From assembly GCA_026874595.1 (NCBI GenBank), contig CM049318.1, positions 53,545,250-53,609,249 on the forward strand: a stretch of DNA of 64,000 bases. The letters are read 5' to 3'. Positions 24,761-48,229 of this stretch are shown here, piece by piece (the first letter of the stretch is position 1; every line of letters starts with the position of its first letter). The notes under the pieces are model-generated. The model was not told the origin of the DNA, ran no database searches, and worked only from the letters and a program-made list of their open reading frames with translations. Both the position numbers and the translations under genes were made by a program. This DNA is from Sipunculus nudus. Taxonomy: Eukaryota; Annelida; Sipuncula; Golfingiida; Sipunculidae.

Positions 24761-25582
24761 ACCTTCAGCCTAGTCCCCTAACTTGTCTAGTAATTTGCTT
24801 CTTGTAATTTGTGCTGATCATGAAGGCCTAGTAAGATCTCGCACCAGTATAGTTGCCCGGAAGTGGCCTAGATAACAAAGAACTCTATCCAGGTGATAAG
24901 GAATATTGTAAATGAGCACATGACGTACTACGTCACGAGGGGCGGATCAAGGATTTAGAGAAAGGAGGGTATACAAAAGGTCCCAAAGTCAGGTGAAAAG
25001 GAAGGAATCGGGGGTGGGGGGGGTGGGGGGGGGAGGGGTTCGGCCGCAATATTTGTTCTGATACCCTTACCCTAAGGTTGCGGCAGGGGAAAAGGGGGGT
25101 GGGGTGGGGATGATTTTAATTGGCTAATTAACGATTAAGTTTTACATTCTTTATCTGCACATTTCCATAGAAGGCTTGGTCTTTACCCCGTTGGGTGACC
25201 ATTCATATGAAAGATCCTTTCATTGGATGTCTTTTGAGTTGACAAAGATGTAAATTTTACCAATAATAACGATTATAAGGTTATTCACCAGGACAGGACT
25301 CGACAACAATAATGGCCAACTTGCCCATGGGGTGGGAATATCTTGAGACCAAGATGTCCCTTGTCTGAAAGTTGCCCGCTGAGCCTACGATATGTCAGAC
25401 CATGCCCATGACATAATCCAAGGGAATATGACATACAGGATATATCATACAGGAAATATAGGAGCAGAGTATGTGTTATGTCATGATGTGTATAATGAGG
25501 TAAATAGAGTTTTCCACATCAGGGAATATTAAGCATTTAAATTTCGTCCAACCCATTTCAATGAACTAGAATTTAATATATA

Positions 25583-25628
<46 letters not shown>

Positions 25629-25742
25629 CAATGAGGGTTGGTCGGCAGATAACCACAGGTAATTCTGTTGAATGAAGACAGACAGACATAACCCAATACT
25701 AACACCAAAAAAACCATCAGAAATGTAAAAACGTAAGTCTAA
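24760..25742. other. Intergenic flank of the RAG-like element
   Basis: Contains G-rich runs (about 25,010-25,040) and a TA tract (about 25,585-25,626). The part at about 25,330-25,540 matches 47,290-47,460 in inverted orientation, more diverged than the RAG arms. No gene was recognised. Confidence 0.5.
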
Positions 25743-25940
25743 CACTTACAAATGTTTGCAGTGTATTGCAACGAAGCTGTAAGCTCGTCTTTCACCCGGT
25801 CGCGACGCATGCGCAAACAGATATAGGTTAAACACGCCCATCGTGACCTGTCTCGACGCATGCACACATGTTTCTCAGATACTTCCGCCCAGACCAAAAC
25901 AACAACAGCTACACGTGAATCTGCGACGCGCCACATTTTG
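25743..25940 (+). repeat. Left terminal sequence of the RAG-like element
   Basis: The arm starts CACTTACAAATGTTTGCAGT. CAC is the invariant start of RAG recombination signals and of Transib/ProtoRAG ends (family knowledge). The segment is GC-richer than its surroundings and holds the probable promoter of the accessory gene, whose ATG is at 26,020. It matches 45,969-45,772 read on the minus strand. The inner limit of the true TIR cannot be set, because the whole arm is inverted-repeated. Confidence 0.7.
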
Positions 25941-26019
25941 ATCAGTTCATTATAGTTTTATCTAGTTTTATATAACTCAACACCCTTTTTGATTCGCGTT
26001 ATTGTGATATATCGAGGGG

Positions 26020-29000
26020 ATGACGGACCAGGCCGGGTCCGGGAAAAGGAAACGTGACGATTCGCCAGACCTGTTCGCTTCAAGCTCCAGCGAGACGGAG
26101 GGTAAGCTGCACTTCACGCTGTTTCGTTTTTCCGTTTACTCAGATCAGCTCATCATCAGTTTTACACTTAGATGTGTGTGTGTGTGTTAAACACCCACAA
26201 TATGTATCCATTCAAGGTCTGACAATAATTTATCGAGTGTCATCTTTCACTTAAAGTAACATCAATCAACTTACTATTACTGACAGTGACACTAGTACAC
26301 TGTTAATGAAGCATGAAACTGATCAGTGCATGAACAACGCCATTTTAGCCTATTGCTATTGCAAATATCACACCATGTAAGACCTTTTCCTTCATCTGTC
26401 ACACTTTGTTATGGTAAATGCAGATCCAGTCCCCTATAAATCTTCTCATTTGTTTATCAAGTTTGGTTGTTATCATTGTTTAAAATAATGATAAGACTTT
26501 AAGAAAGGCAATTAACAATGCCAGTGCAGTTGCTTGCAGATGTGGACCCTGAGCTTCAGTGTATACTTCACATCTGATATGAGATATTGCACTGTGTGTA
26601 TGGAAATATGTTTAAAAATTAATTATAAGTTTAAATGGAAAGTGTGTCTCACACTTTAAAATAAACATAGGAGAATTATCATCATTAAAAGTATGCACAT
26701 CATCAGGGTGCATAGAAAACTAAATCACATTTTTTTTCCAATCTTACAAGTGGGATGGTGAAAGAACGAGCAATACACATGGTGTACATAATAAAAAATA
26801 AGCCATACTAATGGAAAATGAATTTTTATTTCCGACTTTTTATTTTTGCAGGTCCATCCCAGGATTCCAGCAGTCAAGGCAGCAGCAGTGGAAAGACAGT
26901 GTCTCTGCTCAAAGGTAGGTAATATGATTATATATTATTTTCTGTTTTAATCATATATTAAGATTTTCTTTGACACTCTGTGTCAAATATATGTATGTAA
27001 ACACAGCAGATGATAATCACTAGGATGCATAAAGAAATAGTTTTTTTTTTAATTTTACAAATATAGTGGGATGAAACAACAAATTGCGTATAAAAAACAA
27101 GGTGTGCAAAATAATAATTTATTTCACATTCCTACTTGTAAGTAACATTTATTTTCTGTCCAATTTGCAGGTCCACTCCAGGATTCAAGCAGCCAAGGCA
27201 GCAGTAGTGGAAAGTCTGTGTCTCTGCTAAAAGGTAGGTAATGTAATAATTGTACTTTTTTTAGAGTTTTTCTTGTACACTCTTTGGCAAAGGATGCATA
27301 TATAGCAGAGGACTGTCACCAGGATGCTAAAGATAACTAAATTACATAAATATTTTCCCCCAAAATGTTACAGATGGAAGTTGCTTATGATAAACATGAG
27401 TGTGTTTCTTGCATACTCCATGCCAGAGTATGCACATTATTCAATTTACACCCATATACAAGTTCAAAATATTGTTGTATCCTTGGCCTTGTTAATTATG
27501 CACACAGTGTTCTAACATATCAGGTCAGCAGTGTATATTATGTTTAATGTATTTAAATAATTTTTTTGTTTATCACTTCAGCAGGCCCAGCAGGCTCATC
27601 TCAACATTCCAGTAGCCAAAGCAGTAGTAGTGAGAAGTCAGTTTCACTGCTTAAAGGTAAGCACAACAGTAACTTTATTGAATTAAGCCTGGCACAACTT
27701 TATGACTGTACCGAGTTAACTTAGACTGACACTGTTATTAAAAAGAGGGGAGTGGAACCTGTTTTTACCTTCAACTCTGTATTACTGGCACCTATTTTTG
27801 GTCATTATAGAAGGTCTCTTGCTTTTCCTACTACGGGCACCTCTCTTCCATGAAAAATATATTCTCCCGTCAGTGGCCTTAATTTTGAGGTTCTGCTATG
27901 TTTGTGTTTATTTAAAGCATCCAGATCAGTGTCAACTGGGTCACATGTCATTTAAATTCTGACAAACTGTTTGGGTGTCTGTGCATTTCATTGAGAATGT
28001 ATTTTCAATATTGTACCAGTATAGTGCAAATAGGCTAAACCTAATTAATTTTAACTTTCAAATTAAAGTGCAGTATTCAGTAAAAATGAATGTTTCACTG
28101 AGGCTTATTATTGTTGTGATGTTTTTTCAATTAACCATATTTGAACCATATTTGTCAGAATGCGACTAAGTAAATGCCCAGTGATATTTCCTTATCCGTG
28201 TCACCACTAAGAATGCACTGGTGTTGCTTTATTTAATATTACTACTAACAAAAGGTATAGTGAACTGTGGTATTATTATTAGAAGAGGCTGATAAATTGG
28301 CATCATATCATAAATGTATAGAAGAGGCAAGTAAATTGGCATGGTGTCATAAATGTGTACACATCTAAACAAGAAATGTTATCTAAGAATACCATACTGG
28401 AGATCCTCATAAAAATAAATGTTTCAGACACAATAAGATCTCATTTAATATTTATATTAAAACAGTAAACAATTACTTCTCTGCACCCACTAGGGTAAAC
28501 AGAATGGCCAGCCCTTGGCCTCTTTGGATGACAACTGTTTGAAAGTGGGGGTGGGACATATAGTCATTCCTTAGAAGCTAACCCTGTTTATATTGGGTAT
28601 TATCCTTAAATGTCAGCAGCATTTACATTGTAGTATATTTTGAAGTATTCATGATATTTTACTTACACTTTAAGTTTTATGCAAGTATATTTAAAGATTT
28701 AAAAATGACTGAAATAATAACAGTGTTTTTCAAATTTCATTTATTTGAACTGGTTTTATTTTTTTTCAGGACACCAGGTATCACTGCCCAAGCCTGACAG
28801 CAAGGAACACCCACTGGTAGTAAGCAGTTCCAGCCAGTCTGCAGAAGACCTTCCACAGGAAGACACAGACTGTGTGTGGTGCTTTAGCAGGCCAGATAGC
28901 CAGTGTCCGTACCATACCAGTCACAAAACACCCTCCAGTCCAAAGGCAGGAACCAGTACAGCAAGGGGCAATCAAGACTGTTTGTGGTGCAATCCTAAGC

Positions 29001-29146
29001 CAGACAGTCAGTGTCCGCACCATTCGGGTGGAGTGCCACCACTACCACTGCCGTCAAAACGGACCCAATTCTCAAGTGAAGAATACGACTGTCCTTTTTG
29101 TGATAGTAAAACTAAAGCCATCTGCCCTTTCAACAAGAAGAAATAG
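26020..29146 (+). CDS. Accessory zinc-knuckle protein of the RAG-like element (left copy), five exons
   Basis: Exons 26,020-26,101, 26,852-26,914, 27,171-27,233, 27,582-27,656 and 28,770-29,146 have GT-AG borders and matching phase 1, and give an uninterrupted 219-residue product. The start has a basic patch (GKRKRDD) and an acidic/Ser-rich stretch. Exons 2-4 are tandem-duplicated Ser/Gln-rich units, each ending SVSLLK or TVSLLK. The last exon has three repeats of C-x2-C-x7-C-x2-H at residues 129-143, 165-179 and 202-216; the last ligand is Asn here and His in the right copy. The repeat core is DSQCP. Function is unknown: nucleic-acid or protein binding is inferred only from the spacing of Cys and His. 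It lies first inside the transposon end, upstream of RAG2L. Confidence 0.75.
27171..27233 (+). other. Duplicated exon (second of three Ser/Gln-rich exons)
   Basis: Exons at 26,852-26,914 and 27,171-27,233 are both 63 bp and nearly identical (Q-D-S-S-S-Q-G-S-S-S-G-K). The exon at 27,582-27,656 is a 75-bp diverged third copy. All are multiples of three in the same phase, so any can be skipped without a frameshift. The third has a tandem CAG CAG acceptor (27,579-27,584). Confidence 0.75.
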
Positions 29147-29869
29147 TCATGGTGAGATCTTTCTTAACAGTTTATTTTGTTGCATAGTTTCAGTCCTTAA
29201 ACATAATGTTCAATTGTTAGTGGAGTTCTTTTGATGATTTTGTAGACTTGACTTAATTGCTAGTCCATAGCAGCTGTAGGACATACATTTAGTATGGCAA
29301 TAATGCAGACTTTGCTAAAAAATAAGTCCGGCACAGTACAAGTCAAAGGTTTAATTAGTTATTGTCAGTAGGAAAAGCTAAATTTCTATTATCATTTCAC
29401 TGTAACAGAACCTTTTTATATTATTATTACACAAATCAGAAATGCGCAATCTGAAGAATGCATGGCTTTGCCATATGTGGAAGGGGGGGGGGGTTGAAGG
29501 CATACCCTAATAGAGGCAGACTGGCAGTCTGACTGGTACGGCCGTGTGTATGCATCAATTTATGTGTGCTTCAAGCTTTCTGTAAACTATTTTGTTTCAG
29601 ACATACATCAAAGACTTGAAAATAACTTAGTTTATAGACATCTATAAACACTAGCAGTTTGTTCTGAATTTATTTTTTTTTTAATTTTTTGTAGTGTGAG
29701 CCAGATACATCCGAGACAAATCAACCATGGAAGATCAAAAGCTTACAGCAGCACACAACTGACAAAAGAAAAGTAAGTAGAAAGCGGCATGCACTTCATG
29801 TTGCGAATGCTGATGTATATCCTGCAGAAGGACACTCAGCATGTAAGATAAGTCCGAATCAGTGCGACC

Positions 29870-29871
<2 letters not shown>

Positions 29872-29935
<64 letters not shown>
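29872..29935. repeat. TA microsatellite in the RAG2L intron
   Basis: About 32 TA units lie just before the kelch exon acceptor. The right copy has only about five units (near 41,830-41,841), so the tract expanded or contracted after the arms were duplicated. Confidence 0.9.
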
Positions 29936-29938
<3 letters not shown>

Positions 29939-31169
29939 AAGGAGGGTGCCGGTTTACTGAGGACATGACTTGGTCTACAAGTTCCCACATTATCAGGTAT
30001 AAATTTTCTACAATGGGTGGAGATCTGGAGCTGAAAGAAGTCAAAGTGTTCAAAGAGACACATGGGGCCAATATACCACCATTGCTTAGCCCAAGTCTAG
30101 TAGAGGGAGAGACCAGTGGGACAAACCACCACCAGTTGATACTGTTTGGTGGTCTTGAACATGAGAGATATATACACACAAATGATCTATACATGCTGTC
30201 TTTGTCGGTTTCTGGACAAAATAATTAAATGACAGCCAGTCTTCATATGGGGCAGTCCCCTTCTGTCATGGGACCTGGCTTAGATTAGGTTCCTGTGCAA
30301 ACCGGGGATGTGCCATCAGGGCGATATGGGCGATCATTGACAAGAATTCAGTGGTGACATTGTGAACTATGCGGACCAGCTATTCAGGTCAACATGTGAT
30401 GACCAATGTGTGTACATATTGGAAGTCCAAGGCAACATAGCCAAATGGCAGAAGTTTCAAATGGGACCTGAGGTGACGAGAGCTTTTCACTCTGCGATTA
30501 TGGGCCCTAATCAAAATGTTTTCATCTGTGGGAGTATCAGAAATCTGGGCACAAACCCACAGCGGTTACCCATCACCCATGTCACTCTGTTGAAACTGTA
30601 TGATGGTGACATTGTCAGTTCAGTTTTGTTTAAAACTGGCAGTCCTACCCTGTACCTCTCTAGCCCTGCCATAAACATTGTAGGCACACAGATACTTGTG
30701 TATGGCGGGTATGGTTGTGATACCTCAGACGTAACTGGAGACAGGTATCCACCGGTTAGCAGTGCCCTGGTGACAATTGAGGGAGACTCGGGAGATTTTA
30801 AAATCACCCAGTTTGATGAACAATTTGCTTCAGCAGGTTGTTCTTTGATACAACTTGAACAAAATCTTTTCCTGATAGTAAGTGGGACATCTCAGGCTGT
30901 TAATGTCTTGAGCAAACAAATTTTGAAGCAGACACTTGTGCACATGACACTTGCAAAATTTCACAGTAAGCAGTATTACCAGTGTCTTGGATACAATGTG
31001 ACTTAATTTGTCAACAATGGTACCATCAGTTTTGTTTAAATCTTCTTCAGGTGCCCAAAGGTAAATACAAATATCCGAAATGTAAAAAAAAATCCAGAAA
31101 GAGGAAAGGTAAGCGCTAGGCCAAAGACCTGTTTCTACTAAGATTTCAAATGCCTATGTTTATTACATT

Positions 31170-31440
31170 TCAATTTTTTGTATTGTCTGTATCAGATTTT
31201 ATTCTGTAATGTATCTTCAACTTGCTTGAGATGTTGCCATACATATTTCTTTTCTCAAAGGTATTTATTTTCAAATGAAGGGCATCAGTGTGAAATGTAT
31301 TTTTTGTAATTGCATCTTTGAATTTACTATTCAATATACAAGAATGAAATGTTAAGGCTGTTCTGAGGATTTTTTTAAAGTACTTTATTTTTAATATCTT
31401 GGACTTTTTCTGGTCTAAATGTGCCAAACATTTGTGAAAA
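31170..31440 (-). other. Conserved open frame antisense to the RAG2L intron (left copy)
   Basis: A Lys/Asn-rich frame of about 85 codons shares TALTFHSCILNSKFKDAITK with a 92-codon frame at 40,298-40,576 in the right arm. The left copy has one extra base near its start, which changes the first residues. It resembles no family I know. It lies downstream of RAG1L in the same direction, inside the intron before the last RAG2L exon. It may be chance openness in conserved intron sequence. Confidence 0.3.
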
Positions 31441-31989
31441 CTTGCTCATGTGAATATTTAATTGTTCCTATGTGTATGTTAATTTTTTTTAATATATACT
31501 TAGAATATTAGATCACATTCAAATCCTCTGGGCAGGTTTTACAAATTGCTTATTTCAAGTAAATGTACCCAGCATGCAGCATAGTATATACTTTATAAGC
31601 AGGGTATTTTGTGTTCCTCACTGCTTTTCTTTTATGCAGATATATGCCACACTAGTAAACATTCCATCAAGAGGTTATGGAAGAATAACCTGGATCAAGC
31701 ATATTGGCATATTCTAAAACTTTCAGACATCCACACCAGTGATGAATTTGAAACAGTCTTGGATAAATATAAACTGGTAAAGATAGGATGATTTCATGGC
31801 CACTGATTTCTTGCTCACATAAAATTTTTCTATTGTTTCTTACATTAAATTAAAAACTAAATATAGAGAAGTAAAGAAGTTCAAAACATAAGCAACAGCT
31901 GAGTGATTTATTTCCTTTACCTCCAATTATAATATCTGGTTCACAAGGTATCACTTGCATGAAGCTTAAACTGATAACATTTGGTAAAG

Positions 31990-32476
31990 ACGAAAAAGAA
32001 AAATATATATAGATATTTACGTCAATAAGACATGCTCAGATCTCAAAACAAGTCAGTATTTTGTATGCTTTACAGCTCATACTCATAATATTTTACATGT
32101 ATATTGTTACATATTTATTATTTATAGGTTGTAAACAAGTGAACGGGTTACACATATCAACTGAATCCATATATACACGTCAATATGACATACTGAGATC
32201 ACAAAACGAGTCAGTATTTTGTACGCTTTACAGCTCATACTCATAATCTTGTCATATATATTGTTACATATTTATTATTTATAGGTTTTATAACAAGCGA
32301 GCAGGTTTCTCATATTACATTCACACATATCAATATGACATACTTAGATCTCAAAACAAGTCAGTATTTTGTATGCTTTACAGGTCATACTCATAATATT
32401 GTACATGTGTATTGTTACATATTTATGATTTCTAGGTTGTAAACAAGTGAACGGGTTACATTTATCAAGTGATATA

Positions 32477-32515
<39 letters not shown>

Positions 32516-33030
32516 CTCTGAAGAAAAACAACACTATTAATTCACAACAGACTGTTTCACCATTCCATTTCGAAACTCTACTCTACTCTATATATATATA
32601 TATATATATATACGTCAATATGACATGCTCAGATCTCAAAACGAGTCAGTACTTTGTACGCTTAACAGCTCATACTCATAATATTGTCATATATATTGTT
32701 ACATATTTATTATTTATAGGTTTTACAACAAGCGAGCAGGTTTCTCATATTACATTTACACATATCAATATGACATACTTAGATCTCAAAACAAGCTAGT
32801 ATTTTGTATGATTTACAGGTCATTCTCATAATATTGTACATGTATATTGTTACATATTTATGATTTATAGGTTTTAACAAGTGAACAGGTTACATATATT
32901 AAGTGATATAAACATATATATAAATACGTCAATATGACATGCTCAGATCTCAAAACAGTCAGTATTTTGTATGCTCAACAGCTCATACTCATAATTTTGT
33001 ACATGTATATTGTTACATATTTATTATTTA
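31990..33030 (+). repeat. ~155-bp tandem repeat between RAG2L and RAG1L (left arm)
   Basis: About six imperfect units, each holding TCAATATGACAT-CTCAGATCTC, then GTATTTTGTATGCTTTACAGC, then ATTGTTACATATTTAT and a TATAGGTT segment. The right arm has the equivalent array at about 38,860-39,610 with fewer units. It occupies the gap between the convergent 3' ends of RAG2L and RAG1L. Confidence 0.8.
32484..32612 (-). repeat. TA-flanked insertion in the tandem array, related to 12.8-13.07 kb
   Basis: Inside the left array, TA runs border TAACTCTGAAGAAAAACAAC and the following bases, the reverse complement of the duplicated block at 12,822-12,872 and 13,017-13,066. The right array lacks it. This fits a small TA-targeting non-autonomous element inserted after the arms were duplicated. 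Confidence 0.65.
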
Positions 33031-33565
33031 TAGGTGATGTGACCATCTTAGATCATATTTGAGTTGAGAAGTGTTGTACGTATTTATGCATTTTTCATAG
33101 AATTATAGGGATAAGGTACATTTACACACATACATTTTTTGGCATAAAAACAAAATATTTTGTGATACATTTGAAGTCCATACATGATAATATAATATTC
33201 AAATATCTCAAAGGTCATATCATTATGTATTGCATACACTTTACATACCAAAATGGTGCTGTACATGTGTTTTTATAGTGTATAAGTAGTTTGACATTTT
33301 CTTTTCAGAAGATATATTAGTATTGTATATGAGTTTGCATACTTTAGTTAGCACTACGTTTTACATATATATATATATTCAAGTGTTTTCATATTTTCTG
33401 TATCAAGTCAATAAATGTGTAATTGTTTTGTATCACAATATTTTGCTTATGCTTCAGTGATTAAAACCATTTTCTATCTCATGTTGCTAAAAAAGATAAT
33501 GCTGATACAATGTGATTATTAAATCATTTTTAATGCACATGTTTTGTCTGTTGTGCAAGTGAAAA

Positions 33566-36450
33566 TCAAAAGATCTCATCTGACAGGCTCACTTGGATTT
33601 CCTTTGGGCAGGTTAGTTTATTATGTCCTGTGTTCCCACATGTTCCACATTTGTATTTCTGATGTGTCACTGTGGAGAGTGTCTGAAGGCTTGGTGAACT
33701 GTATAGCCAGTGAAATTTCAGGACATGCACTAATCCCTGATGTGTACTTCCCTTCGCTGATAGGTTTTTTCTGATATGCCTGAAGAGTTTATTTCCTACC
33801 TCCAGACCCTCTCCGCTCATTCCACCTATTGTGTGCAGGGAACTTTCATCGGATAGTAGTTCTTGTACATGTTCCACCAATTTGTGCATGTAGTTAGGCC
33901 ATTTGGCAAATTCAAAGTTTTCCTTCATCATTTTAGCAAATGACACTGCTATAGCTTTGTATCCACAAATCATGGCATGTGTTGGTTTGCTTGACCTGTA
34001 AACTTGTCTCATTTGGCGAAATTTGTCCATCACCAATAAAAAAAATTTTCTTGTCAGGTCCATCCTTGATAAGTGCAGCAACCTTGTTTGCATTCTCTGC
34101 CTGGAACAGCATCCTGGCATAATTTCCAGGCATTAGTATAATTTCAACACTGCCAATCTCCCTTCTGATGTGTTTATCAAATTTGGCCTCTGCATCTGCC
34201 AGGTTTGGTTTGATGGCAGCAGTCTCCTCCCATTGCCTTATGCCAGCAATCAATCTGATGATCAACTTCTTAAAAAACCTTGCCATGTTAATGTCTGCAT
34301 GGGTTGCATCTAGCATGCGTTCGTTTGGCTGAGACATGAGCAGTGGCACAGATTTCACCCCCTATGCCACTTTAGACATGACCTTGGTGCCAAGGTTGTC
34401 AGGATTGGCCTTCAGATAATCAGCTAAATAATGGGTTTCTTCCCTAGTTCTAACTATCTTGAAATCCTCCACATACTCTCTTGCTGAATGTTCTGTTGCA
34501 TGGCAAAGGGTGCAAATAAAACTTGACCCGGCACCCTGGAGTCCACCAAATGCACGGTCATATTTCTCATCTTCCATTGGTGAGAAAAAAAAAACAAACT
34601 CATATTACCTAAATAGGTTTTCTTTAACTTTAACAGACAGGAGTTTATTCCTTGAAGACGTCCTTTCAGTTTCAATAGGTGCAAGACAGATGGTTGCAGC
34701 AGACTTGTTGTTTTCATCAGCAAGTGCCTCCAGCAATGGACGGTTGGAACGGACTGAATTAGGTGTCTCACACTCGTACACAACAAATTTTTTGCCATCC
34801 ATATTAACATGTATTTCAAGTATACAAAAAGCAAATTGAAATGTTTTATCAGGCAATTTTCTGTTACCTTTCTCCTTATAAACAGAGCATTCCCCCATGC
34901 CATCTCTTCCATCTTTTATCACTGCTGTGAGCACTGCATCATGACTATCAAACTCCAGCATGTCCAGCCCTTCCTCTACCATAGGGTAAAATTCTTTTAA
35001 TGTTGAGGCCAATGCATCTGGATAGTGCCACCTCAGGCCTTTGCAGTTTGGAGGTAACAGTTCTGGAAATCCTGTTGAGAAATTTGCCATCACATCAACA
35101 GGCCTTGAATCCTTGGCAGGATTATGCTCAAAAGTCATATCATGTTCAGGGTCTGTTAAATTGTACTCACAAGCAGGGGGCACTAATTCAGCCTCAACCT
35201 TATTCAGTTCATCAGGGCTTGGAATCACAGTGTCATGTTTATGCTTTAAAATCTCATACTGTCTTCTGTACTTGGACTTACTCTGAAGACTCTCAACCCT
35301 TATTGCTAAGCTTTCTTTGGCTGTCATCTTACTTGATCCCATGGAATCCCACATATCCTGCAGTTTTAATGACAACTCAGTTTCATCCTGTAACTGAAGT
35401 TCATTTTTCAACATGAAAAATTAAACATCAACAATGTTTTCATAATGTTCAGTGCAATAGGAACGAACACTGTAGATCAAGTTCTTGATTCTATCCCTTT
35501 TCACACACCCTGGGTTTGCCTGGTTCAAGTTCATTTTTGTATCTCTTGGTCTGACAGAACGTTTCCTTGGCTCAGCTAGTAAAGCTCTGCTATACCTGCC
35601 ATAGGTACATATTTTTTCATGTTCACACAATTTATCAAACTTAAATTCTTTCTTACAACCTTTGTCAACATATCTGCACTTAACATGAATTTCTTCTGTC
35701 ACCATGGATACCATATGTGTAGCATCATATAAGTCATCATCCCCCATGACTGATCTGCATATTGGGCAAGCACCGCCATTACTAAGTAGACCTCTAACAC
35801 ATGTATAACAAAGAATATGTTTACATGATGTTATAAAGCGCTGTTTGTTACCACCTATGCATTCACAATATCCACATTTAACTCTGGCAGCAATGTGTTT
35901 TTCTACACACCTATCATATCTCACGTGTGTCTCACATGCCAATTTGTCTTCGGTTTGAAATGTCCCTGACCTGGAGATGTTGTTGCAAACAGTTTCAGTT
36001 TTTTTCCTTGCAGGAGGTGTGGTTGCCTTTCTTTCTAGGCTAGTAGGACTGGTTACCTTAGGTGTTTTTTTTTTGGGGGGGTGTTTTTCTCGGTGTTTTC
36101 CTCTTCTCCCAACCACAGATATTACAATTTCCAGAATGAGGCTCAAAATGAAAAACCTCAGTTATTCTTGTAGAAATCCTTTTTCTGTCTCACCTTCCCT
36201 TCTTAACCCTGTGCAGCATTCGGTCACAAGACAGACAAATAAATGGGGGATGAACACCTTGAATATCATTGTCCAGGTCATAATTGAAATGAAAAGCAAT
36301 GGTGCTTTTATAGTCTGAAATTGGAACGAGATTTCTCCCTTGTACTTGGCTGGTGGGCTTTCCACAAACTCGACAGTGAAGTAACAACTTTTTGATATGG
36401 TCATCAGGAATATCCCTTCTGCTAGATTCAGCTGATAGGCTCTCCATCAT
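33566..36450 (-). pseudogene. RAG1L: RAG1-like transposase, left copy (nearly complete, four disabling lesions)
   Basis: Exon 1 is 36,450-36,194 and contains CRVCGKP, then GVHPPFICLSCDRMLHR, matching the RAG1 N-terminal zinc-binding region. Exon 2 runs from 36,141 and holds a Lys/Pro-rich linker, a C3HC4 RING (CGYC, SCKHILCYTC, CPIC) and a following C2H2-like finger. The core follows in the same exon. The DDE residues are present: Asp in RDGMGE (34,902-34,904), Asp in MEDEK (34,569-34,571, exactly 19 residues before CTLC as in RAG1) and Glu in SGEGLEVGNKLF (33,809-33,811). Zinc ligands CTLC and H-x4-H (MHKLVEH) are kept. A C-terminal CCHC knuckle (CGTCGNTGHNKLTC) follows. Lesions: TAA 35,421-35,423, TAA 34,605-34,607, TAG 34,362-34,364, and a 1-bp loss near 34,037-34,050. 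Confidence 0.93.
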
Positions 36451-36710
36451 ATTCTAATATTTCTCTGAAAATAAAAAAGTTAAACATATTTTGGAATGTT
36501 ATATATATAGGGGAATATTTTATAAACCTACACAAATAAGGCCAAAAAATTTAAAGGTATGATTCTCAGGCACCGCCCGCATTAATTTTAAACCCCCGCA
36601 TCAAAAAATTTATTTTGATTTTCAACAGAAACTTACCGATTTTGAGTTTCAGCCGCTAGGATATTTCGTTCAAGTAGATAAAATCATACAATTTCCTTTG
36701 TTATGGAACA
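35149..36710. other. Loop between the RAG arms
   Basis: Unique to one side. It holds the RAG1L N-terminal coding region of the left copy (to 36,450) and about 260 bp of non-RAG sequence. That part includes TTAAAGGTATGATTCTCAGG and, at 36,665-36,706, CGTTCAAG-AGATAAAAT...TTTCCTTTGTTAT, both resembling pieces of 58,200-58,420. No CACTTAC-type end is seen here. Confidence 0.7.
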
Positions 36711-38271
36711 TGAACATGATATGACTTTTGAGCATAATCCTGCCAAGGATTCAAGGCCTGTTGATGTGATGGCAAATTTCTCAACAGGATTTCCAGAACT
36801 GTTACCTCCAAACTGCAAAGGCCTGAGGTGGCACTATCCAGATGCATTGGCCTCAACATTAAAAGAATTGGACCCTATGGTAGAGGAAGGGCTGGACATG
36901 CTGGAGTTTGATAGTCATGATGCAGTGCTCACAGCAGTGATAAAAGATGGAAGAGATGGCATGGGGGAATGCTCTGTTTACAAGGAGTAAGGTGACAGAA
37001 AATTGCCTGATAAAGCACTTCGATTTGCTTTTTGTATACTTGAAATACATGTTAATATTGATGGCAAAAATTTGTTGTGTACGAGTGTGAGACACCAAAT
37101 TCAGTCCGCTCCAACCGTCCATTGCTGGAGGCACTTGCTGATGAAAACAACAAGTCTGCTGCAACCATCTGTCTTGCACCTATTGAAACTGAAAGGACGT
37201 CTTCAAGGAATAAACTCCTGTCTGTTAAAGTTAAAGAAAACCTATTTAGGAAATATGAGTTAGTTTTTTTTTTCTCACCAATGGAAGATGAGAAATATGA
37301 CCGTGCATTTGGTGGACTCCAGGGTGCCGGGTCAAGTTTTATTTGCACCCTTTGCCATGCAACAGAACATTCAGCAAGAGAGGATGTGGGGAATTTCAAG
37401 ATAGTTAGAACTAGGGAAGAAACATATTATTTAGTTGATTATCTGAAGGCCAATCCTGACAACCTTGGCACCAAGGCCATGTCTAAAGTGGCAAAGGGGG
37501 TGAAATCTGTGCCACTGCTCATGTCTCAGCCAAAGGAACGTATGCTAGATGCAACCCATGCAGACATTAACATGGCAAGGTTTTTTAAGAAGTTGATTAT
37601 CAGATTGATTGCAGGCATAAGGCAATGGGAGGAGACTGCTGCCATCAAACCAAACCTGGCAGATGCAGAGGCCAAATTTGATAAACACATCAGAAGGGAG
37701 ATTGGTAGTGTTGCAATTCTACTAATGCCTGGAAATTATGCCAGGATGCTGTTCCAGGCAGAGAATGCAAACAAGGTTGCTGCACTTATCAAGGATGGAC
37801 CTGACAAGAATAATTTTTTACTGGTGATGGACAAATTTCGCCAAATGAGACAAGTTTACAGGTCAAGCAAACCAACAAATGCCATGATTGGTGGATACAA
37901 AGCTATAGCAATGTCATTTGCTAAAATGATGAAGGAAAACTTTGAATTTGCCAGATGGCCTAACTACATGCACGAATTGGCGGAACATGTACAAGAACTA
38001 CTATCCGATGAAAGTTCCCTGCGGAGAGGGTCTCGAGGCAGGAAATAAACTCTTCAGGCATATCAGAAAAAAACTTTCAGCGAAGGGAAGTACACATCAG
38101 GGATTAGTGGATGTCCTGAAATTTCACTGGCTATACAGTTCACCAAGCCTTCAGACTCTCTCCACAGTGACACATCAGAAATACAAATGTGGAACATGTG
38201 GGAGCACAGGACATAATAAACTAACCTGCCCAAAGGAAATCCAAGTGAGCCTGTCTGATGAGATCTTTTGA
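36703..38271 (+). pseudogene. RAG1L: RAG1-like transposase, right copy (N-terminally truncated, broken)
   Basis: Coding similarity to the left RAG1L begins at 36,711 (the EHDMTFEHNPAKDS region); the RING and N-terminal zinc region are absent. An ATG at 36,703 in adjacent DNA opens the frame by chance. The catalytic Asp residues are kept in RDGMGE near 36,950 and MEDEK near 37,285. Lesions: TAA at 36,988-36,990, a 1-bp loss near 37,065 and a 20-bp deletion near 38,023 immediately before the catalytic Glu segment, which then resumes as GEGLEAGNKLF. From 37,077 to 38,048 the frame is open, where the left copy has two stops and a frameshift. The C-terminal CCHC knuckle (CGTCGSTGHNKLTC) is intact. 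Confidence 0.92.
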
Positions 38272-38460
38272 ATTTCACTTGCACAACAGACAAAACATGT
38301 GCATTAAAAATGATTTAATAATCACATTGTATCAGCATTAACTTTTTAACAACATGAGATAGAGAAAGGTTTTAATCGCTGAAGCATAAGCAAAATATTG
38401 TGATACAAAAAAACACACATTTATTGACTTGATACAGAAAATATGAAAACACTTGAAAAC

Positions 38461-38463
38461 ATA

Positions 38464-38502
<39 letters not shown>
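38461..38502. repeat. TA microsatellite in the right arm
   Basis: A TA run of about 38 bp sits downstream of the right RAG1L. The left arm has a much shorter TA run at the mirrored place (33,365-33,380). Confidence 0.85.
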
Positions 38503-38505
<3 letters not shown>

Positions 38506-38859
38506 AAACGTAGTGCTAACTAAAGTATGCAAAACTCATATACAATACTAATATATCTTCTGAAAAGAAAATGTCAAACTACTTATACACTATAAAAACA
38601 CATGTACAGCACCATTTTGGTATGTAAAGTGTATGCAATACAAACTGATATGACCTTTGAGAAATTTGTATATCATATTGTCATGTATGGACTTCCAATG
38701 TATCATTAAATATTTTGTTTTTATGCCAAAAAATGTATGTGTGTAAATGTACCTTATCCCTATAATTCTATGAAAAATGCATAAATCCTTACAACACTAC
38801 TCAACTCAAATATGATCTAAGATGGTCACATCACCTATAAATAATAAATATGAAACAAT

Positions 38860-39610
38860 ATACATGTAAAATATTAATAGTATGAGCTGTTAAGATTACA
38901 AAATCCTGACTTGTTTTGAGATCTGAGCATGTCATATTGACGTATATATATGTTTTATATCACTTAATATATGTAACCTGTTCACTTGTTAAAGCCTATA
39001 AATCATAAATATGTAACAATATACATGTACAATATTATGAGAATGACCTGTAAAGCATACAAAATACTGGCTTGTTTTGAGATCTAAATATGTCATATTG
39101 ATACGTTTAAATGTAATATGAGAAACCTGCTCGCTTGTTGTAAAACCTATAAATAATAAATATGTTACAATATATATGACAATATTATGAGTATGAGCTG
39201 TAAAGCGTACAAAATACTGACCCGTTTTAAAATCTAAGTATGTCATATTGACGTGTATATATGGATACAGTTGATATGTGTAACCCGTTCACTTGTTTAC
39301 AACCTATAAATAATAATATGTAATAATATACATGTACAATATTATGAGTATGACCTGTGAAGCATAAAATATACTGACTTGTTTTGAGATCTAAGTATGT
39401 CATATTGACGTATATATATATGTTTAGATCACTTGATATATGTAACCCGTTCACTTGTTTACAACCTATAAATCATAAATATGTAACAATATACATGTAC
39501 AATATTATGAGTATGACCTGTGAAGCATACAATATACTGACTTGTTTTGAGATCTAAGTATGTCTTATTTACATGTGTAGATGTAATATGAGAAACCTGC
39601 TCGCTTGTTG
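38860..39610 (-). repeat. ~155-bp tandem repeat between RAG1L and RAG2L (right arm)
   Basis: About five units of the array described at 31,990-33,030, in reverse complement. Units alternate between forms with GAGAAACCTGCTCGCTTGTT and forms with GTAACCCGTTCACTTGTT, suggesting that the array grew by duplication of unit pairs. Confidence 0.75.
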
Positions 39611-39955
39611 TCAAATCTATTTACGGATAAACAAATTGACCTGTTTTATGTAGTTCAAGGAAGCACCTACTGCTCTTGACCACTTTAAATTTTACACAAA
39701 ACTCTTTCATTCTATATGAATATTAAATGAAAAATCTTGCTCAGTTTTCTTTTTCGTGTTTACCAAATGTTATCAGTTTAACCTTCATGCAAGTGGTACC
39801 ATGTGGAACAGTTATTAAAACTGGAGGTAAAGGAAATAAATCACTCAGCTGTTGCTAATGTTTTGAACTTCTTTATTTCTCTATATTTAGTTTTTAATTT
39901 AATGTAAGAAACAATAGAAAAATTTTATGTGAGCAAGAATTCAGTGGCCATGAAA

Positions 39956-42016
39956 TCATCCTATCTTTACCAGTTTATATTTATCCAAGACTGTTTCAAA
40001 TTCATCACTGGTGTGGATGTCTGAAAGTTTTAGAATATGCCAATATGCTTGATCCAGGTTATTCTTCCATTACCTCTTGATGGAATGTTTACCAGTGTGG
40101 CATATATCTGCATAAAGGAAAAGCAGTGAGGAACACAAATTACCCTGCTTATAAAGTATATACTATGCTGCATGCTGGGTACATTTACTTGAAATAAGCA
40201 ATTTGTAAAACCAGCCCAGAGGATTTGAATGTGATCTAATATTCTAAGTATATATTTCAAAAATTAAATATACACATAGGAACAATTAAATATTCACATG
40301 AGCAAGTTTTCACAAATGTTTGGCACATTTAGACCAGAAAAAGTCCAAGATATTAAAAATAAAGTAATTAAAAAAATCCTCAGAACAGCCTTAACATTTC
40401 ATTCTTGTATATTGAATAGTAAATTCAAAGATGCAATTACCAAAAATACATTTCACACTGATGCCCTTCATTTGAAAATAAATACCCTTGAAAAAAGAAA
40501 TATGTATGGCAACATCTCAAGCAAGTTGAAGATACATAACAGAATAAAATCTGATACAGACAATACAAAAAATTGAAATGTAATAAACAAATGCATTTGA
40601 AATCTTAGTAGAAACAGGTCTTTGGCATAGCGCTCACCTTTCCTCTTTCTGGATTTTTTACATTTCGGACATTTCTATTTACCTTTGGGCACCTGAAGAA
40701 GATTAAAAAAAAACTGATGGTACCAATGTTGACACATAAAGTCACATTGTATCCAAGACACTGGTTATACTGCTGACTGTGAAATTTTGCAAGTGTCATG
40801 TGCACAAGTGTCTGCTTCAAAAATATGTTTGCTCAAGACATTAACAGCCTGAGATGTCCCACTTACTATCAGGAAAAGATTTTGTTCAAGTTGTATCAAA
40901 GAACAACCTGCTGAAGCAAATTAAAATCTCCCGAGTCTCCCTCAATTGTCACCAGGCACTGCTAACCGGTGGTTACCTGTCTCCAGTTACGTCTGAGGTA
41001 TCACAACTATATCCGCCATACACAAGTATATGTGTGCCTACAATGTTTATGGCAGGGCTAGAGAGGTACAGGGTAGGACTGCCAGTTTTAAACAAAACTG
41101 AACTGACAATGTCACCATCATACTGTTTCAACTGAGTGACAGGGGTGATGGGTAACCGCTGTGGGTTGGTGCCCAGATTTCTGATACTCCCACAGATGAA
41201 AACATTTTGATTAGGACCCATAATCGCAGAGCGAAAAGCTCTCATCACCTCTGGTCCCATTTGAAACTTCTGCCATTTGGCTATGTTGCCTTGGACATCC
41301 AATATGTTCACACATTGGTCATCACATGTTGACCTGAATAGCTGGTCCGCATAGTTCACAATGTCACCTCTGGACTTCACCATGGCACCTCCAATTAAAA
41401 TGTAACTATTACACTGAATTCTTGTCAATGTGTGCCCGTATCGCCCTGATGACACATCCCCGGTTTGCACAGGAACCTTACCTAAGCCAGGTCCGATGAC
41501 AGAAGGGGACTGCCCCATATGAAGACTGGCTGTCATTTTATTATTTTGTCCAGAAACCGACAAAGACAGCATGTATAGATCATTTGTGTGTATATATCTC
41601 TCATGTTCAAGACCACCAAACAGTATCAACTGGTGGTGGTTTGTCCCACTGGTCTCTCCCTCTACTAGGCTTGGGCTAAGCAATGGTGGTATATTGGCCT
41701 CATGTGTCTCTTTGAACATTTTGACTTCTTTCAGCTCCAGATCTCCACCCATTGTAGAAAATTTATACCTGATAATGTGGGAACTTGTAGACCAAGTCAT
41801 GTCCTCAGTAAACCGGCACCCTGCTATTCTATATATATATAATGGTCGCACGTATTCGGACTTATCTTACATGCTGAGTGTCCTTCTGCAGGATATACAT
41901 CAGCATTCGCAACATGAAGTGCATGCCGCTTTCTACTTACTTCTTTTGTCAGTTGTGTGCTGCTGGAAGCTTATGATCTTCCATGATTGATTTGTCTCGG
42001 ATGTATCTGGCTCACA
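39956..42016 (-). pseudogene. RAG2L: RAG2-like kelch protein, right copy
   Basis: Exons 42,016-41,941 (76 bp, phase 1 out), the kelch exon from 41,820, 40,692-40,638 and 40,107-39,956. The kelch exon joins in frame to give RCRFTEDMTW and stays open for about 280 codons. It includes LILFGGLEH, SGRYGHTLTRI (very like the RAG2 G-R-Y-G-H-T segment), SYILIGGAM, NVFICGS and HILVYGGYSC. Lesions: TAA directly after TSDVTGDR near 40,970, a 1-bp loss just after it, TAG in the 40,692 exon and TAA in the last exon. The propeller is better preserved here than in the left copy. RAG2L would act with RAG1L in DNA cleavage and transposition. Confidence 0.88.
40298..40576 (+). other. Conserved open frame antisense to the RAG2L intron (right copy)
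   Basis: 92 codons, Lys/Asn-rich, open in an AT-rich region and matching the frame at 31,170-31,440. No family is recognised. It would be transcribed in the RAG1L direction. Coding status is doubtful. Confidence 0.3.
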
Positions 42017-42575
42017 CTACAAAAAATTTTAAAAAAAAAAATTCAGAACAAACTGCAACTGTTTATAGATGTCTTTAAACTAAGTTATTTTCAAGTCTAT
42101 GATGTATGTCTGAAACAAAATAGTTTACTGAAAGCTTGAAGCACACATAAATTGATGCATACACACGACCGTACCAGTTTTATTTATCAGACTGCCAGTC
42201 TGCCTCTATTAGGGTATGCCTTCAACCCCCCCCCCCCCCCTTCCACATATGGCAAAGCCATGCATTCTTCAGATTGAACATTTCTGGTTTGTGTAATAAT
42301 AATATAAAAAGGTTCTGTTACAGTGAAATGATAATAGAAATTTAGCTTTTCCTACTGACAATAACTTATTAAACCTTTGACTTGTACAGTGCTGGACTTA
42401 TTTTTAGCAAAATCTGCATTATTGCCATACTAAATGTATGTCCTACAGCTGCTATGGACTAACAATTAAGTCAAGTCTACAAAATCATCAAAAGAACTCC
42501 ACTAACTATTGAACATTATGTTTAAGGACTGAAACTATGCAACAAAATAAACTGTTAAGAAAGATCTCACCATGA

Positions 42576-45500
42576 CTATTTCTTCTTGTGGAAAGGGCAG
42601 ATGGCTTTAGTTTTACTATCACAAAAACGACAGTCGTATTCTTCACTTGAGAATTGGGTCCGTTGTGACGGCAGTGGTGGTGGTTGCACTCCACCCGAAT
42701 GGTACGGACACTGACTGTCTGTCTTGATTGCCCCTTGCTGTACTGGTTCCTGCCTTTGGACTGGAGGGTGTTTTGTGACTAGTATGGTACGGACACTGGC
42801 TATCTGGCCTGCTAAAGCAGCACACACAGTCTGTGTCTTCCTGTGGAAGGTCTTCTGCAGACTGGCTGGAACTGCTTACTACCAGTGGGTGTTCCTTGCT
42901 GTCAGGCTTGGGCAGTGATACCTGGTGTCCTGGAAAAAAAATAAAACCAGTTCAAATAAATGAAATTTGAAAAACACTGTTATTATTTCAGTCATTTCTA
43001 AATCTTTAAATATACTTGCATAAAACTTAAAGTGTAAGTAAAATATCATGAATACTTCAAAATATACTACAATGTAAATGCTGCTGACATTTAAGGATAA
43101 TACCCAATATAAACAGGGTTAGCTTCTAAGGAATGACTATATGTCCCACCCCCACTTTCAAACAGTTGTCATCCAAAGAGGCCAAGGGCTGGGCATTCTG
43201 TTTACCCTAGTGGGTGCAGGGAGTAAATTTTTACTGTTTTAATATAAATATTAAATGAGATCTTATTGTGTCAGAAACATTTATTTTTATGAGAATCTCC
43301 AGTATGGTATTCTTAGATAACATTTCTTGTTTAGATGTGTACACATTTATGACACCATGCCAATTTACTGGCCTCTTCTATACATTTATGATATGATGCC
43401 AATTTATCAGCCTCTTCTAATAATAATACCACAGACAGTTCACTATACCTTTAGTTAGTAGTAATATTAAATAAAGCAACACCAGTGCATTCTTAGTAAT
43501 GACATGGATAAAGAAATATCATTGAGCATTTACTTAGTTGCATTCTGACAAATATGGTTCAAATATGGTTAATTGAAAAAACATCACAACAATAATAAGC
43601 CTCAGTGAAACATTCATTTTTACTGAATACTTCACTTTAATTTGAAAGTTAAAATTAATTAGGTTTAGCCTATTTGCACTCTACTGGTACAATATTGAAA
43701 ATACATTCTCAATGAAATGCACAGACACCCAAACAGTTTGTCAGAATTTAAATGACATGATACCCAGTTGACCCTGATCTGGATGCTTTAAATAAACACA
43801 AACACAGCAGAACCTCAAAATTAAGGCCACTGACGGGACAAATTATTTTTCATGGAATAGAGAGGTGCCCGTAGTAGAAAAAGCAAGAGACCTTCTATAA
43901 TGACCAAAAATAGGTGCCCGTAATACATAGTTGAAGGTAAAAACAGGTTCCACTCCCCTCCTTTTAATCACAGTGTCAGTCAAAGTTAACTCGGTACAGT
44001 CATAAAGTTGTGCCAGGCTTAATTAAATAAAGTTACTTTTGTGCTTACCTTTAAGCAATGAAACTGACTTCTCACTACTACTGCTTTGGCTACTGGAATG
44101 TTGAGATGAGCCTGCTGGGCCTGCTGAAGTGATAAACAAAAAATTATTTAAATACATTAAACATAATATACACTGCTGACCTGATATGTTAGAACACTGT
44201 GTGCATAATTAACAAGGCCAAGGATACAACAATATTTTGAACTTGTATATGGGTGTAAATTGAATAATGTTGTGAAAATTTAATGTGCATACTCTGGCAT
44301 GCAGTATGCAAGAAACACACTCATGTTTATCATAAGCAACTTCCATCTGTAACATTTTGGGGGAAATTATTTATGTAATTTAGTTATCTTTAGCATCCTG
44401 GTGACAATCCTCTGCTATATATGCATCCTTTGCCAAAGAGTGTACAAGAAAAACTCTAAAAAAGTACTATTATTACATTACTTACCTTTTAGCAGAGACA
44501 CAGACTTTCCACTGCTGCTGCCTTGGCTGCTTGAATCCTGGGGTGGACCTGCAAATTGGACAGAAAATAAATGTTACTTACAAGTAGGAATATGAAATAA
44601 ATTATTATTTTGCACACCGTGTTTTTCATACGCAATTTGTTGTTTCATCCCATTATATTTGTAAAATTAAAAAAAAAACATTTCTTTATGCATCCTAGTG
44701 GTTATCATCTGCTGTATATACATACATATATTTGACAAAGAGTGTGCAAGAAAAACTTAATATATGATTAAAACAGAAAATAATATATAATCGTATTACC
44801 TACCTTTGAGCAGAGACACTGTCTTTCCACTGCTGCTGCCTTGACTGCTGGAATCCTGGGATGGACCAGCAAAAATAAAAAGTCGGAAATAAAAATTCAT
44901 TTTCCATTAGTATGGCTTATTTTTAATTATGTACACCATGTGTATTGCTTGTTCTTTCCCAATCCCACTTGTAAGATTGGGAAAAAAATGTGATTTAGTT
45001 TTCTATGCACCCTGATGATGTGCATACTTTTAATGATGATAATTTAATTCTCATATGTTTATTTTAAAGTGTGAGACACATTTTCTATTAATTTTTAAAC
45101 ATATTTCCATACACACAGTGCAATATCTCATATCAGATGTGAAGTATACACTGAAGCTCAGGGACCACATCTGCAGGCACCCGCACTGGCATGGTTAATT
45201 GCCTTTCTTAAAGTCTTATCATTATTTTTTAACAATGATAACAACCAAACTTGATAAATGAGAAAATTTATAGGGGACTGTATCTGCATTTACCATAACA
45301 AAGTGTGACAGATGAAGGAAAATAAGGTTTTACATGGTGTGATATTTGCAATAGCAATAGGCTAAAATGGCGTTGTTCATGCACCGATCAATTTCATGCT
45401 TCATTAACAGTGTACTAGTGTCACTGTCAGTAATAGTAAGTTGATTGATGTTACTTTAAGTGAAGGATGACACTCGATAAATTATTGTAAGAACTTGGAT

Positions 45501-45692
45501 GGATACATATTGTGGGTATTTAACACACACACACATTTATCTAAGTGTAAAACTGATCATGAGCTGATCTGAGTAAACGGAAAAACGAAACAGCGTGAAG
45601 TGCAGCTTACCCTCCGTCTCGCTGGAGCTTGAAGCGAACAGGTCTGGCGAATCGTCACGTTTCCTTTTCCTGGACCCGGCCTGGTCCGTCAT
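42576..45692 (-). pseudogene. Accessory zinc-knuckle protein, right copy
   Basis: Mirror of the left gene: exons 45,692-45,611, 44,866-44,804, 44,548-44,486, 44,123-44,049 and 42,929-42,576. The acceptor of the second exon is TG where the left has AG (near 44,867), so that 63-bp exon would be skipped without changing frame. A 23-bp deletion near 42,720 removes the first two Cys of the second knuckle and shifts the frame. The third knuckle has the full C-x2-C-x7-C-x2-H, ending CPFHKKK. The internal donor described at 28,820 is conserved here (near 42,880). Confidence 0.75.
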
Positions 45693-45771
45693 CCCCTCGA
45701 TATATCACAATAACGCAAATCAAAAAGGTTGTTGAGTTATATAAAACTAGATAAAACTATAATGAACTGAT

Positions 45772-45969
45772 CAAAATGTGGCGCGTCGCAGATTCACGTG
45801 TACGTGTTGTTGTTTTGGTCTGGGCGGAAGTATCTGAGAAACATGTGCCCATGCGTCGTGACAGGTCACGATGGGCGTTTATAAACTATATCTGTTTGCG
45901 CATGCGTCGTGACCGGGTAAAGGACGAGCTTATAGCTTCGTTGCAATACACTGCAAACATTTGTAAGTG
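45772..45969 (-). repeat. Right terminal sequence of the RAG-like element
   Basis: Ends ...CATTTGTAAGTG at 45,969, the reverse complement of the left start CACTTACAAATG. Similarity with the left arm ends at this base: outside lies AGCGACGGAT, unlike the left flank. Confidence 0.7.
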
Positions 45970-47280
45970 AGCGACGGATAGGGTATTGCCATTACTGGCC
46001 GATAGAGTTCGGGGCAACAGGTGATAATGCAACTGGGACACTTCGTATCACATCTTTATGTGTCTAAAACAAAATCACGTAAGAAGACCCACCAGCTATA
46101 CCTGCTATGTAAATGGGAAGTGGATATGAGTAACCGGTTTCAATTTTGCATTGCATGTGAAATGTCAGTTTTGGGACCTTTTTCCGATTATTGAAGTGGT
46201 GACAGATATTCAACGGACTTAATACGGATTTAATACGGACTCTCTCTAGTTAGCCTTGAATTATTACTATTTATTTAGGTTATTGGTTTTAAAGGACTCT
46301 TGTTGAACTGTGACAGTGGTGGTATCCAGAATCAAAGCCTAGGATCCGGACACTCTGGTACTGTACCTTCTTATTGTTATACTGTGTATTTGTATTAATT
46401 TAGAGCATTCTAATGTTAGGCATGTTCTAAGAATAATTTATAATTATTTGTTAAAAAAAACACTGACTTCTTTATTCATTCCTCTAGACATTTCCTGCTG
46501 CCTAGTCTTACAGAATCTATTTTTTTTTATCTCCGTAACAAAATTTTTGCTGAACACGATTACGTGATCTGTTCATATTAGGTTCCGTAACATTGGATTA
46601 TACTATTTCACCTCACATAGAGTAAGGTACCACAGGTACTGCAATCTGCAGGCAAAACATAGCAAAGATAATTAAACCAGTAAAAAATGCCATGTGAAAA
46701 CATCAGTCTGAAAATAATTCTATTTAATATAGTATTTATAAATATCCCTTTGCTCTAAATGGCAAATGATTTGAAGCTAATGTACTTTACAGACTAATCT
46801 CAAGAAAAGTCTGTAACATGTGGTGAAGAAAGCAGCAGCGGTTTTAAATATATTTGGTAAAAGAATTGGGCGGAACGGACCAAAGAACAGATTTGAAACA
46901 TTTTATTAGTCCTTCCTCCTTATGATTGGGACTAATAAATAACAAAATGCTGTGGACTACTTACTTTTTTTTGCTTTTCTGGTCCTCGAAACCATTGCTA
47001 CTATTCACCGATCCTGTTGGTGACAACCGGAAATATGTCTAACATAATTGGATACTTGAATGCTTTTTATGGAGCATGTTGTTAGTTAGTCATTATAGTC
47101 CTTCCTAACTGTATCAAATCCATATTAACGTACACGATAGTGTGCTTTATGCATACAGTGAGAAAGTCCCAGCATTCATTTAAACTTAGGTTTGCCTTTT
47201 TGGATTATAATGCTGAAAATTCTGCAGGATTTGCTAGCTTTAATATTAAGTCTGATGTAAGATTATTGTAAATGGTTTGA
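45970..47280. other. Right flank, dispersed repeat, no gene seen
   Basis: About 46,705-46,940 matches 51,230-51,570 in direct orientation (shared AGTCTGAAAATAATTC, GGTAAAAGAATTGG/GAGCGG and AGTCCTTCCTCC-type blocks). No protein is recognised. Confidence 0.5.
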
Positions 47281-47289
47281 AGCTAGCAT

Positions 47290-48165: not shown

Positions 48166-48229
48166 TAAAAAAGGAGGTACTGACTTAATTAAGTGGGTTG
48201 TTTCTTTATGTCATAGTGGTCATACCTTT

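Follow-up and report, generated by a model that had tools for sequence, protein, structure and literature searches.

Two RAG-like transposon copies arranged as a palindrome

The 64,000-bp stretch of the Sipunculus nudus genome studied here, called the window below (C13:53545250-53609249 in an assembly of 1.43 Gb and 153 contigs), contains two copies of a RAG-like (RAGL) transposon in opposite orientations, which we named X and Y; such transposons are related to the element from which the antibody-gene recombinase arose. Self-comparison delimited two inverted arms, 25743-35153 (9411 bp) and 36706-45969 (9264 bp), with a loop of 1552 bp between them. This agrees with the first-pass annotation of the locus, which described two RAGL copies fused as a palindrome, with mirror-image arms of 9.4 and 9.3 kb around a loop of about 1.56 kb; RAG1L, RAG2L and a predicted upstream gene are indeed present in the arms. 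The sequence allows us to assume with high confidence that the palindrome is a RAGL element nested in another copy of itself, with DNA deleted where the two meet.

Element X, the presumed host copy, runs on the plus strand from its 3′ terminal inverted repeat (TIR) to the deletion junction (25743-36705), and its final 93 bp lie at 45970-46062. The 3′TIR, CACTTACAAATGTTTGCAGT, occupies 25743-25762 (plus strand), next to the left target site duplication (TSD), TCTAA, at 25738-25742; the same end is found in Y and in three copies elsewhere in the genome (C7, C10 and C3a). It is followed by a third gene (26020-29146, plus strand), whose frame is open and whose exons (26020-26101, 26852-26914, 27171-27233, 27585-27656 and 28770-29146) were predicted from splice sites and from the frame across copies. 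RAG2L comes next (29149-31119, plus strand), with a likely ATG at 29149-29151, an intron and a main exon at 29695-31119; it carries three stop codons and two frameshifts. RAG1L is full length (33566-36453, minus strand), with four stop codons and four frameshifts, and is separated from RAG2L by a tandem array (32018-33035) with a period of about 150-163 bp, the length of which differs among copies. According to self-comparison and the alignment of copies, the loop (35154-36705) consists of the 5′ part of this RAG1L and the DNA upstream of it, both lost from Y.

Element Y (36706-45969, minus strand), the nested copy, mirrors this order. Its RAG1L (36706-38271, plus strand) is truncated at the loop and thus lacks the 5′ part; we counted one stop codon and six frameshift indels in it, possibly including the terminal gap. 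The main exon of RAG2L (40627-42016, minus strand) has three stop codons and five frameshift indels. The frame of the third gene (42576-45692, minus strand; exons 45692-45611, 44866-44804, 44548-44486, 44120-44049 and 42929-42576) is broken: its last exon is 23 bp shorter than that of C7, and the acceptor of exon 2 is changed. The 3′TIR is intact (45950-45969, minus strand) and is adjoined by AGCGA (45970-45974), the first bases of the 93-bp X remnant. The latter ends in the 5′TIR, which reads CACATAAAGATGTG from outside, and is followed by the right copy of TCTAA at 46063-46067.

RAG2L thus lies on the plus strand and RAG1L on the minus strand in X, and the reverse is true of Y, so that the two genes are convergent in each copy. 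Pieces of RAG1L in the window match the Pfam model PF12940 with E values down to 9e-32. Pieces of RAG2L match kelch models, the RAG2 model PF03089 being reached only below threshold (E 0.002).

The arms align in two pieces (25743-32872 with 45969-38833, and 32281-35153 with 39620-36706). Complementarity is 92-98% in the 25 longest of 100 ungapped block pairs, and gapped identity is only 90-91% because of indels and the tandem array. A comparison of six copies (X, Y and the four described below) gave 6194 clean columns, the array and gapped places being excluded; the arms differ at 189 of these (3.05%). A scan of the window placed CACTTAC at both outer edges of the palindrome. The heptamer alone is not significant in the window (11 matches against 7.2 expected, a count reached in 11 of 100 shuffles); the longer end CACTTACAAATGTTTGCAGTG is common to both outer edges and to C7, C10 and C3a.

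The element as defined by its other genomic copies

Searching the genome with 3 kb of the left arm, we found four further full-length matches beyond the two arms, namely C7, C10, C3a (at 52.1 Mb on C3) and C3b (at 75.2 Mb on C3), as well as partial or diverged ones. In this and the other genome searches with pieces of the element, only the best candidates were scored. C7, C10 and C3a extend from CACTTACAAATG at the 3′ end to CATCTGTATGTG, which from outside reads CACATACAGATG. The 3′TIR therefore begins with CACTTAC and the 5′TIR with CACATAC, both starting with CAC. Perfect 5-bp TSDs flank all three copies with both ends (CATCC in C7, TGTGT in C10 and AACCC in C3a); C3b is without its 3′ end and falls outside TSD scoring. 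Copies with CACTTAC ends, for which the first-pass annotation proposed a search, do exist.

In C10 the frames of both recombinase genes are open. Its RAG1L comprises 958 codons from stop to stop and matches PF12940 (E 6e-68) and the lancelet RAG1L structure 6b40_A of the Protein Data Bank (PDB; E 9e-151). The motifs DGMG, DATH.DINM and EG.EAGNKLFR, in which we take the DDE acids to lie, are aligned between the two proteins. The C10 RAG2L has 470 codons with kelch and PHD parts; it matches 6b40_M (E 8e-20), PF03089 (E 1e-5, above the cut-off) and the PHD model PF00628 (E 2e-5).

A Pfam RAG1 search detected 34 RAG1 stretches across the genome. Other RAG1L loci with long open frames were observed at C2:3873420-3875147 (997 codons), C11:72623253-72624983 (838 codons) and C14:33117811-33119187 (548 codons), which makes it probable that the genome harbours several RAGL lineages. 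At C17:37334962-37366621, five matches bearing the 3′TIR follow one another at an exact spacing of 7812 bp. From the RAGL 3′ end, the unit that we read holds about 2.1 kb and a further piece of 0.5 kb; two neighbouring units are identical at all 589 bases compared. The series is either a tandem array of recent origin or the product of expansion during assembly.

The right arm probably lies inside the left copy

The DNA beyond the outer border of the right arm is not plain host sequence. The 3′TIR there directly adjoins a RAGL 5′ end: positions 45970-46062 match the terminal 93 bp of the 5′ end of C7 at 88 of 93 bases (E 3e-37), as far as the closing CAC, with no other match in the window. A 551-bp query from the 5′ end gave seven matches at six places in the genome, and in this region it found only the 93-bp remnant. 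The remnant is followed by TCTAA, which also stands directly before the left arm; two random 5-mers of the window agree with a chance of 0.0017. The 5′TIR of X starts with CACATAA, one change from CACATAC in the first seven bases. Since TCTAA stands at both of its ends, the simplest reading of the sequence is that the left copy X is a single element spanning 25743-46062 with an intact TSD, and that Y sits reversed inside it, 93 bp from its 5′ end.

This changes the limits proposed in the first-pass annotation. The unit ends at 46062 and not at 45969, and it is bounded by an unlike pair, a 3′TIR and a 5′TIR with matching TSD, rather than by two identical ends. Nor did two identical transposon ends facing inward turn up: in the loop CACTTAC is absent and the longer 3′ end is unmatched, and the single match of the 5′ end in the window lies at 45970-46062. 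Of the two causes that the annotation had offered, nested insertion is favoured by the remnant and the TSD, and inverted duplication is contradicted by homology that stops at the 3′TIRs.

The inner join was located by alignment with other copies. X resembles C3b up to 36705, and Y resembles C7 from 36706, starting inside RAG1L; at this junction (36705/36706) a 2-bp microhomology, GA, fits both. The gap in X from 36705 to the 93-bp remnant amounts to 1616 bp on the scale of C3b, and on the scale of C7, Y lacks 2565 bp including its 5′TIR. One deletion at this point would account for the missing parts of both copies. The loop is thus the part of the X RAG1L, including the RING domain, that Y lost.

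The sequence itself shows both breakpoints, the 93-bp remnant, the TSD of X, the ends of the element and, in X and Y alike, decayed RAG1L and RAG2L; we infer a single deletion and the following order of events. A RAGL transposon, X, would have inserted first, duplicating TCTAA. A second copy, Y, would then have entered X backwards, 93 bp inside its 5′ end, by way of the Y 3′TIR. Afterwards a deletion, or else end-joining repair of an incomplete insertion, would have removed the 5′ end of Y with part of its RAG1L and about 1.6 kb of X. The remainders of X and Y would thereby have been fused head to head at 36705/36706, giving the locus its palindromic look and the 1.55-kb loop.

The palindrome is real and looks unusual; its cause is ordinary, and it does not represent a new type of mobile unit. 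Its outer ends are still a 3′TIR (25743) and a 5′TIR (46062), the second 3′TIR being internal, so RAGL proteins supplied by another copy could in principle move the composite. A self-nested insertion is good evidence that the family has been jumping in this lineage, and into itself.

Both copies have decayed and may be close in descent

Over the 6194 clean columns, private changes number 95 in X, 94 in C3b, 87 in Y, 36 in C3a, 21 in C7 and 15 in C10; X and Y are similar in this respect (p 0.60). Among private changes in RAG1L and RAG2L codons, the synonymous ones are 7 of 41 in X, 11 of 45 in Y and 12 of 41 in C3b, against a neutral expectation of 27%. X and Y have thus decayed, as their private changes fit the share expected without selection and both recombinase genes carry stop codons and frameshifts. 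Within the C7/C10/C3a group, the coding changes on the two internal branches are synonymous in 9 of 11 cases (p 0.0003 against neutrality), which argues that the family was under protein constraint while active.

X and Y have in common 19 changes that are missing from the four other copies. Of those that fall in coding sequence, only 2 of 11 are synonymous, compared with 9 of 11 on the internal branches mentioned above (Fisher p 0.009). The sequences weakly suggest that X and Y are near-sisters with a recent, already decaying common ancestor. There are hints that Y may descend from an already decaying X, that is, from local self-insertion, and Y may even be a copy of X itself after a local hop, which the data weakly favour.

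Several points weigh against this account of the locus. The second TSD copy of Y is lost, so its insertion is not proved by a TSD. The sister status of X and Y depends on the 19 sites. When C5 is taken as outgroup, 12 of them can be scored, 10 being derived and 2 ancestral; with C3c 3 are derived, 1 is ancestral and 1 shows a third state. That X, Y and C3b have branches of similar length would fit a general burst as well, and does not in itself make X older than Y. Finally, the whole reading is drawn from one assembly of one individual and from sequence only.

Alternative explanations

Within the nested-insertion reading, it may be asked whether insertion and deletion were one event, in which a sister copy of X underwent one-ended, abortive transposition into X and was fixed there by end joining. 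The decay-like composition of the 19 shared changes and the similar private change of X and Y speak for this course. On the other hand, the sites are few, a shared defective source or gene conversion between the arms would leave the same pattern, and the layout is explained equally well by an insertion followed by a deletion. We therefore consider a single event possible, if rather unlikely. As for gene conversion between the arms, we saw no sign of it: the shared sites are spread out, and the longest identical run between the arms, 228 bp, is within chance (random median 182 bp, 95% point 259 bp).

Palindromes are a known failure of assemblies, and one could be produced by a read that folds back or by two haplotypes joined head to head. 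Such an artefact is very unlikely here because of the TSD and because each arm carries about 1.4-1.5% private, neutral-looking changes, with 3.05% between the arms. In addition, the flanks differ, the TSD and the remnant are as a nested insertion predicts, and the length of the longest identical run gives no indication of a copied tract.

An inverted duplication, that is, fold-back copying of one RAGL copy, would explain why the arms are collinear over more than 9 kb and why X and Y appear, weakly, as sisters in the tree. It is nevertheless unsupported, since homology stops exactly at both 3′TIRs without passing into the flanks, and the right 3′TIR lies within another RAGL 5′ end whose outer flank equals the left TSD. 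The outer inverted piece that we tested (47600-48170) belongs to a local repeat family of C13. Only if the 93-bp remnant and the matching TSD were coincidental would this explanation escape refutation, and we give it hardly any weight.

Least credible of all is a composite transposon whose two copies moved jointly via their like 3′ ends, for, although both 3′TIRs are intact and ProtoRAG 3′/3′ TIR substrates are only moderately reduced in recombination (parts of PMC8289069), the right 3′TIR lies inside X, the 5 bp outside the two CACTTAC ends do not match (TCTAA and AGCGA), so that there is no sign of like ends moving as a unit, and no second composite was found among the best-scoring candidates of genome searches with three pieces of the element.

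A third gene upstream of RAG2L

The gene between the 3′TIR and RAG2L, called accessory in the first-pass annotation, is predicted from DNA. In C7 it has five predicted exons and an open frame of 218 residues plus stop; exons 2-5 follow an AG acceptor and all junctions are in phase 1. The predicted protein has a basic start, MTDQAGSRKRKR, Ser/Gln-rich repeats in the short exons and, in the last exon, three zinc-like CxxC...CP(Y/F)H motifs. The X gene is open with its last motif lacking a His, and the genes of Y, C10, C3a and C3b are broken or incomplete.

Traces of the gene extend beyond the main family. A diverged RAGL copy lies at C3:57266408, with protein identities of 53-77% in pieces of RAG1L and 47-59% in pieces of RAG2L. 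Here the first exon of the third gene matches at 23 of 28 residues (codon changes: 9 synonymous, 5 nonsynonymous), and the last exon carries two of the motifs (tblastn E 6e-8). Both parts of the gene are also present in a copy at 41.64 Mb on C12 (C12:41639833-41643723), whose first exon contains an insertion of 2 bp in the alignment, and a 30-residue piece is matched at C13:5810550 (E 6e-6). With the last exon of the main family as query, all 10 matches at E up to 0.001 fall in copies already named. For this exon Pfam gave sub-threshold matches only (best PSI_Plexin-B, E 1e-4), and sequence searches of NCBIfam and PDB gave none.

The predicted third gene ends just ahead of the likely RAG2L start. 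In the main family its stop codon, TAG, is followed by 2 nt and then by an ATG with a GTGAG donor, and the RAG2L exon after the acceptor is in frame. The donor sequence at the ATG, GGTGAGA, is kept in four of the six copies; C3b has GGTGATT, and C3a is gapped after GGTG. In the diverged copy at 57.27 Mb on C3, we read by eye a stop codon TAA, 10 nt and ATG GTT with a GTAAG donor, in frame with RAG2L.

We tentatively suggest from these sequences, at somewhat short of even confidence, that the RAGL elements of this animal carry a conserved third gene, that RAG2L would be expressed from a two-gene transcript through reinitiation or alternative splicing, and that the third protein could be a partner or regulator that the RAG recombinase has lost. 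If a conserved third protein is indeed tied to RAG2L expression, the usual view that the founding element of V(D)J recombination had two genes would be incomplete, and the protein would be a candidate regulator that can be tested directly. A third RAGL gene was not found among the matches listed in the open-licence papers searched, which included parts of PMC9885083, and this gene of the family may be undescribed. The locus is of interest for how fully the palindrome parses, for the past activity it implies and for the third gene, the last being the more consequential.

Other repeats in the window

Low-identity inverted pieces also lie outside the transposon, at 24163-25567 and 47260-48161, the right one being a minisatellite region with a 16/32-bp unit. 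An older palindrome made of the pieces 24373-24922 and 47637-48161 was considered and rejected, as a genome search identified the right piece as a local repeat family: all 14 matches listed among the best-scoring candidates for 47600-48170, query included, are on C13 within about 90 kb, in both orientations. A second inverted pair of about 1.3 kb and 76% identity is located at 48506-49851 and 59053-60362. A dispersed repeat of about 430 bp (46164-46593) recurs at at least 39 other genomic places with 85-88% identity, and a 42-bp tandem unit is present in eleven perfect copies at 61816-62277.

Comparison with known systems

Martin et al. (2020, PMC7204232, in the parts available) describe protostome RAGL transposons of oysters, mussels and a ribbon worm. 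The element described here resembles them in its convergent RAG1L and RAG2L, the RING domain in RAG1L, the PHD finger in RAG2L, CAC-starting TIRs and 5-bp TSDs. The layout given in those parts, TSD-5′TIR-RAG1L-RAG2L-3′TIR-TSD, includes no description of a third gene, whereas here one is predicted between the 3′TIR and RAG2L. Compared by eye with the consensus in the same source, our 3′TIR fits at 16 of 17 places and our 5′TIR poorly, at 11 of 17.

Another known system is the ProtoRAG of lancelets. The RAG1L core and RAG2L of C10 are homologous to its proteins (PDB 6b40; E values above), and sections of PMC8289069 report 5-bp TSDs and unlike 5′ and 3′ TIRs for it as well. Its terminal heptamer is CACTATG, compared with CACTTAC and CACATAC here, and the lancelet RAG2L is without the PHD finger, according to PMC7204232, whereas that of C10 has one. 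ProtoRAG prefers an unlike 3′/5′ TIR pair, like pairs being moderately worse in recombination; a decrease in cleavage is reported for 5′/5′ and not for 3′/3′ pairs (both from sections of PMC8289069).

Among the matches listed in open-licence papers, we found no example of a nested RAGL, and the protostome elements in the available parts of PMC7204232 differ from ours, in which two copies are nested as a palindrome. One copy within another is a state that X and Y share with nested or self-inserted DNA transposons in general, for example Mutator-like elements (PMC3903597). What sets them apart from such cases is the inverted orientation and the subterminal site of insertion which, together with the deletion, would have given rise to the palindrome.

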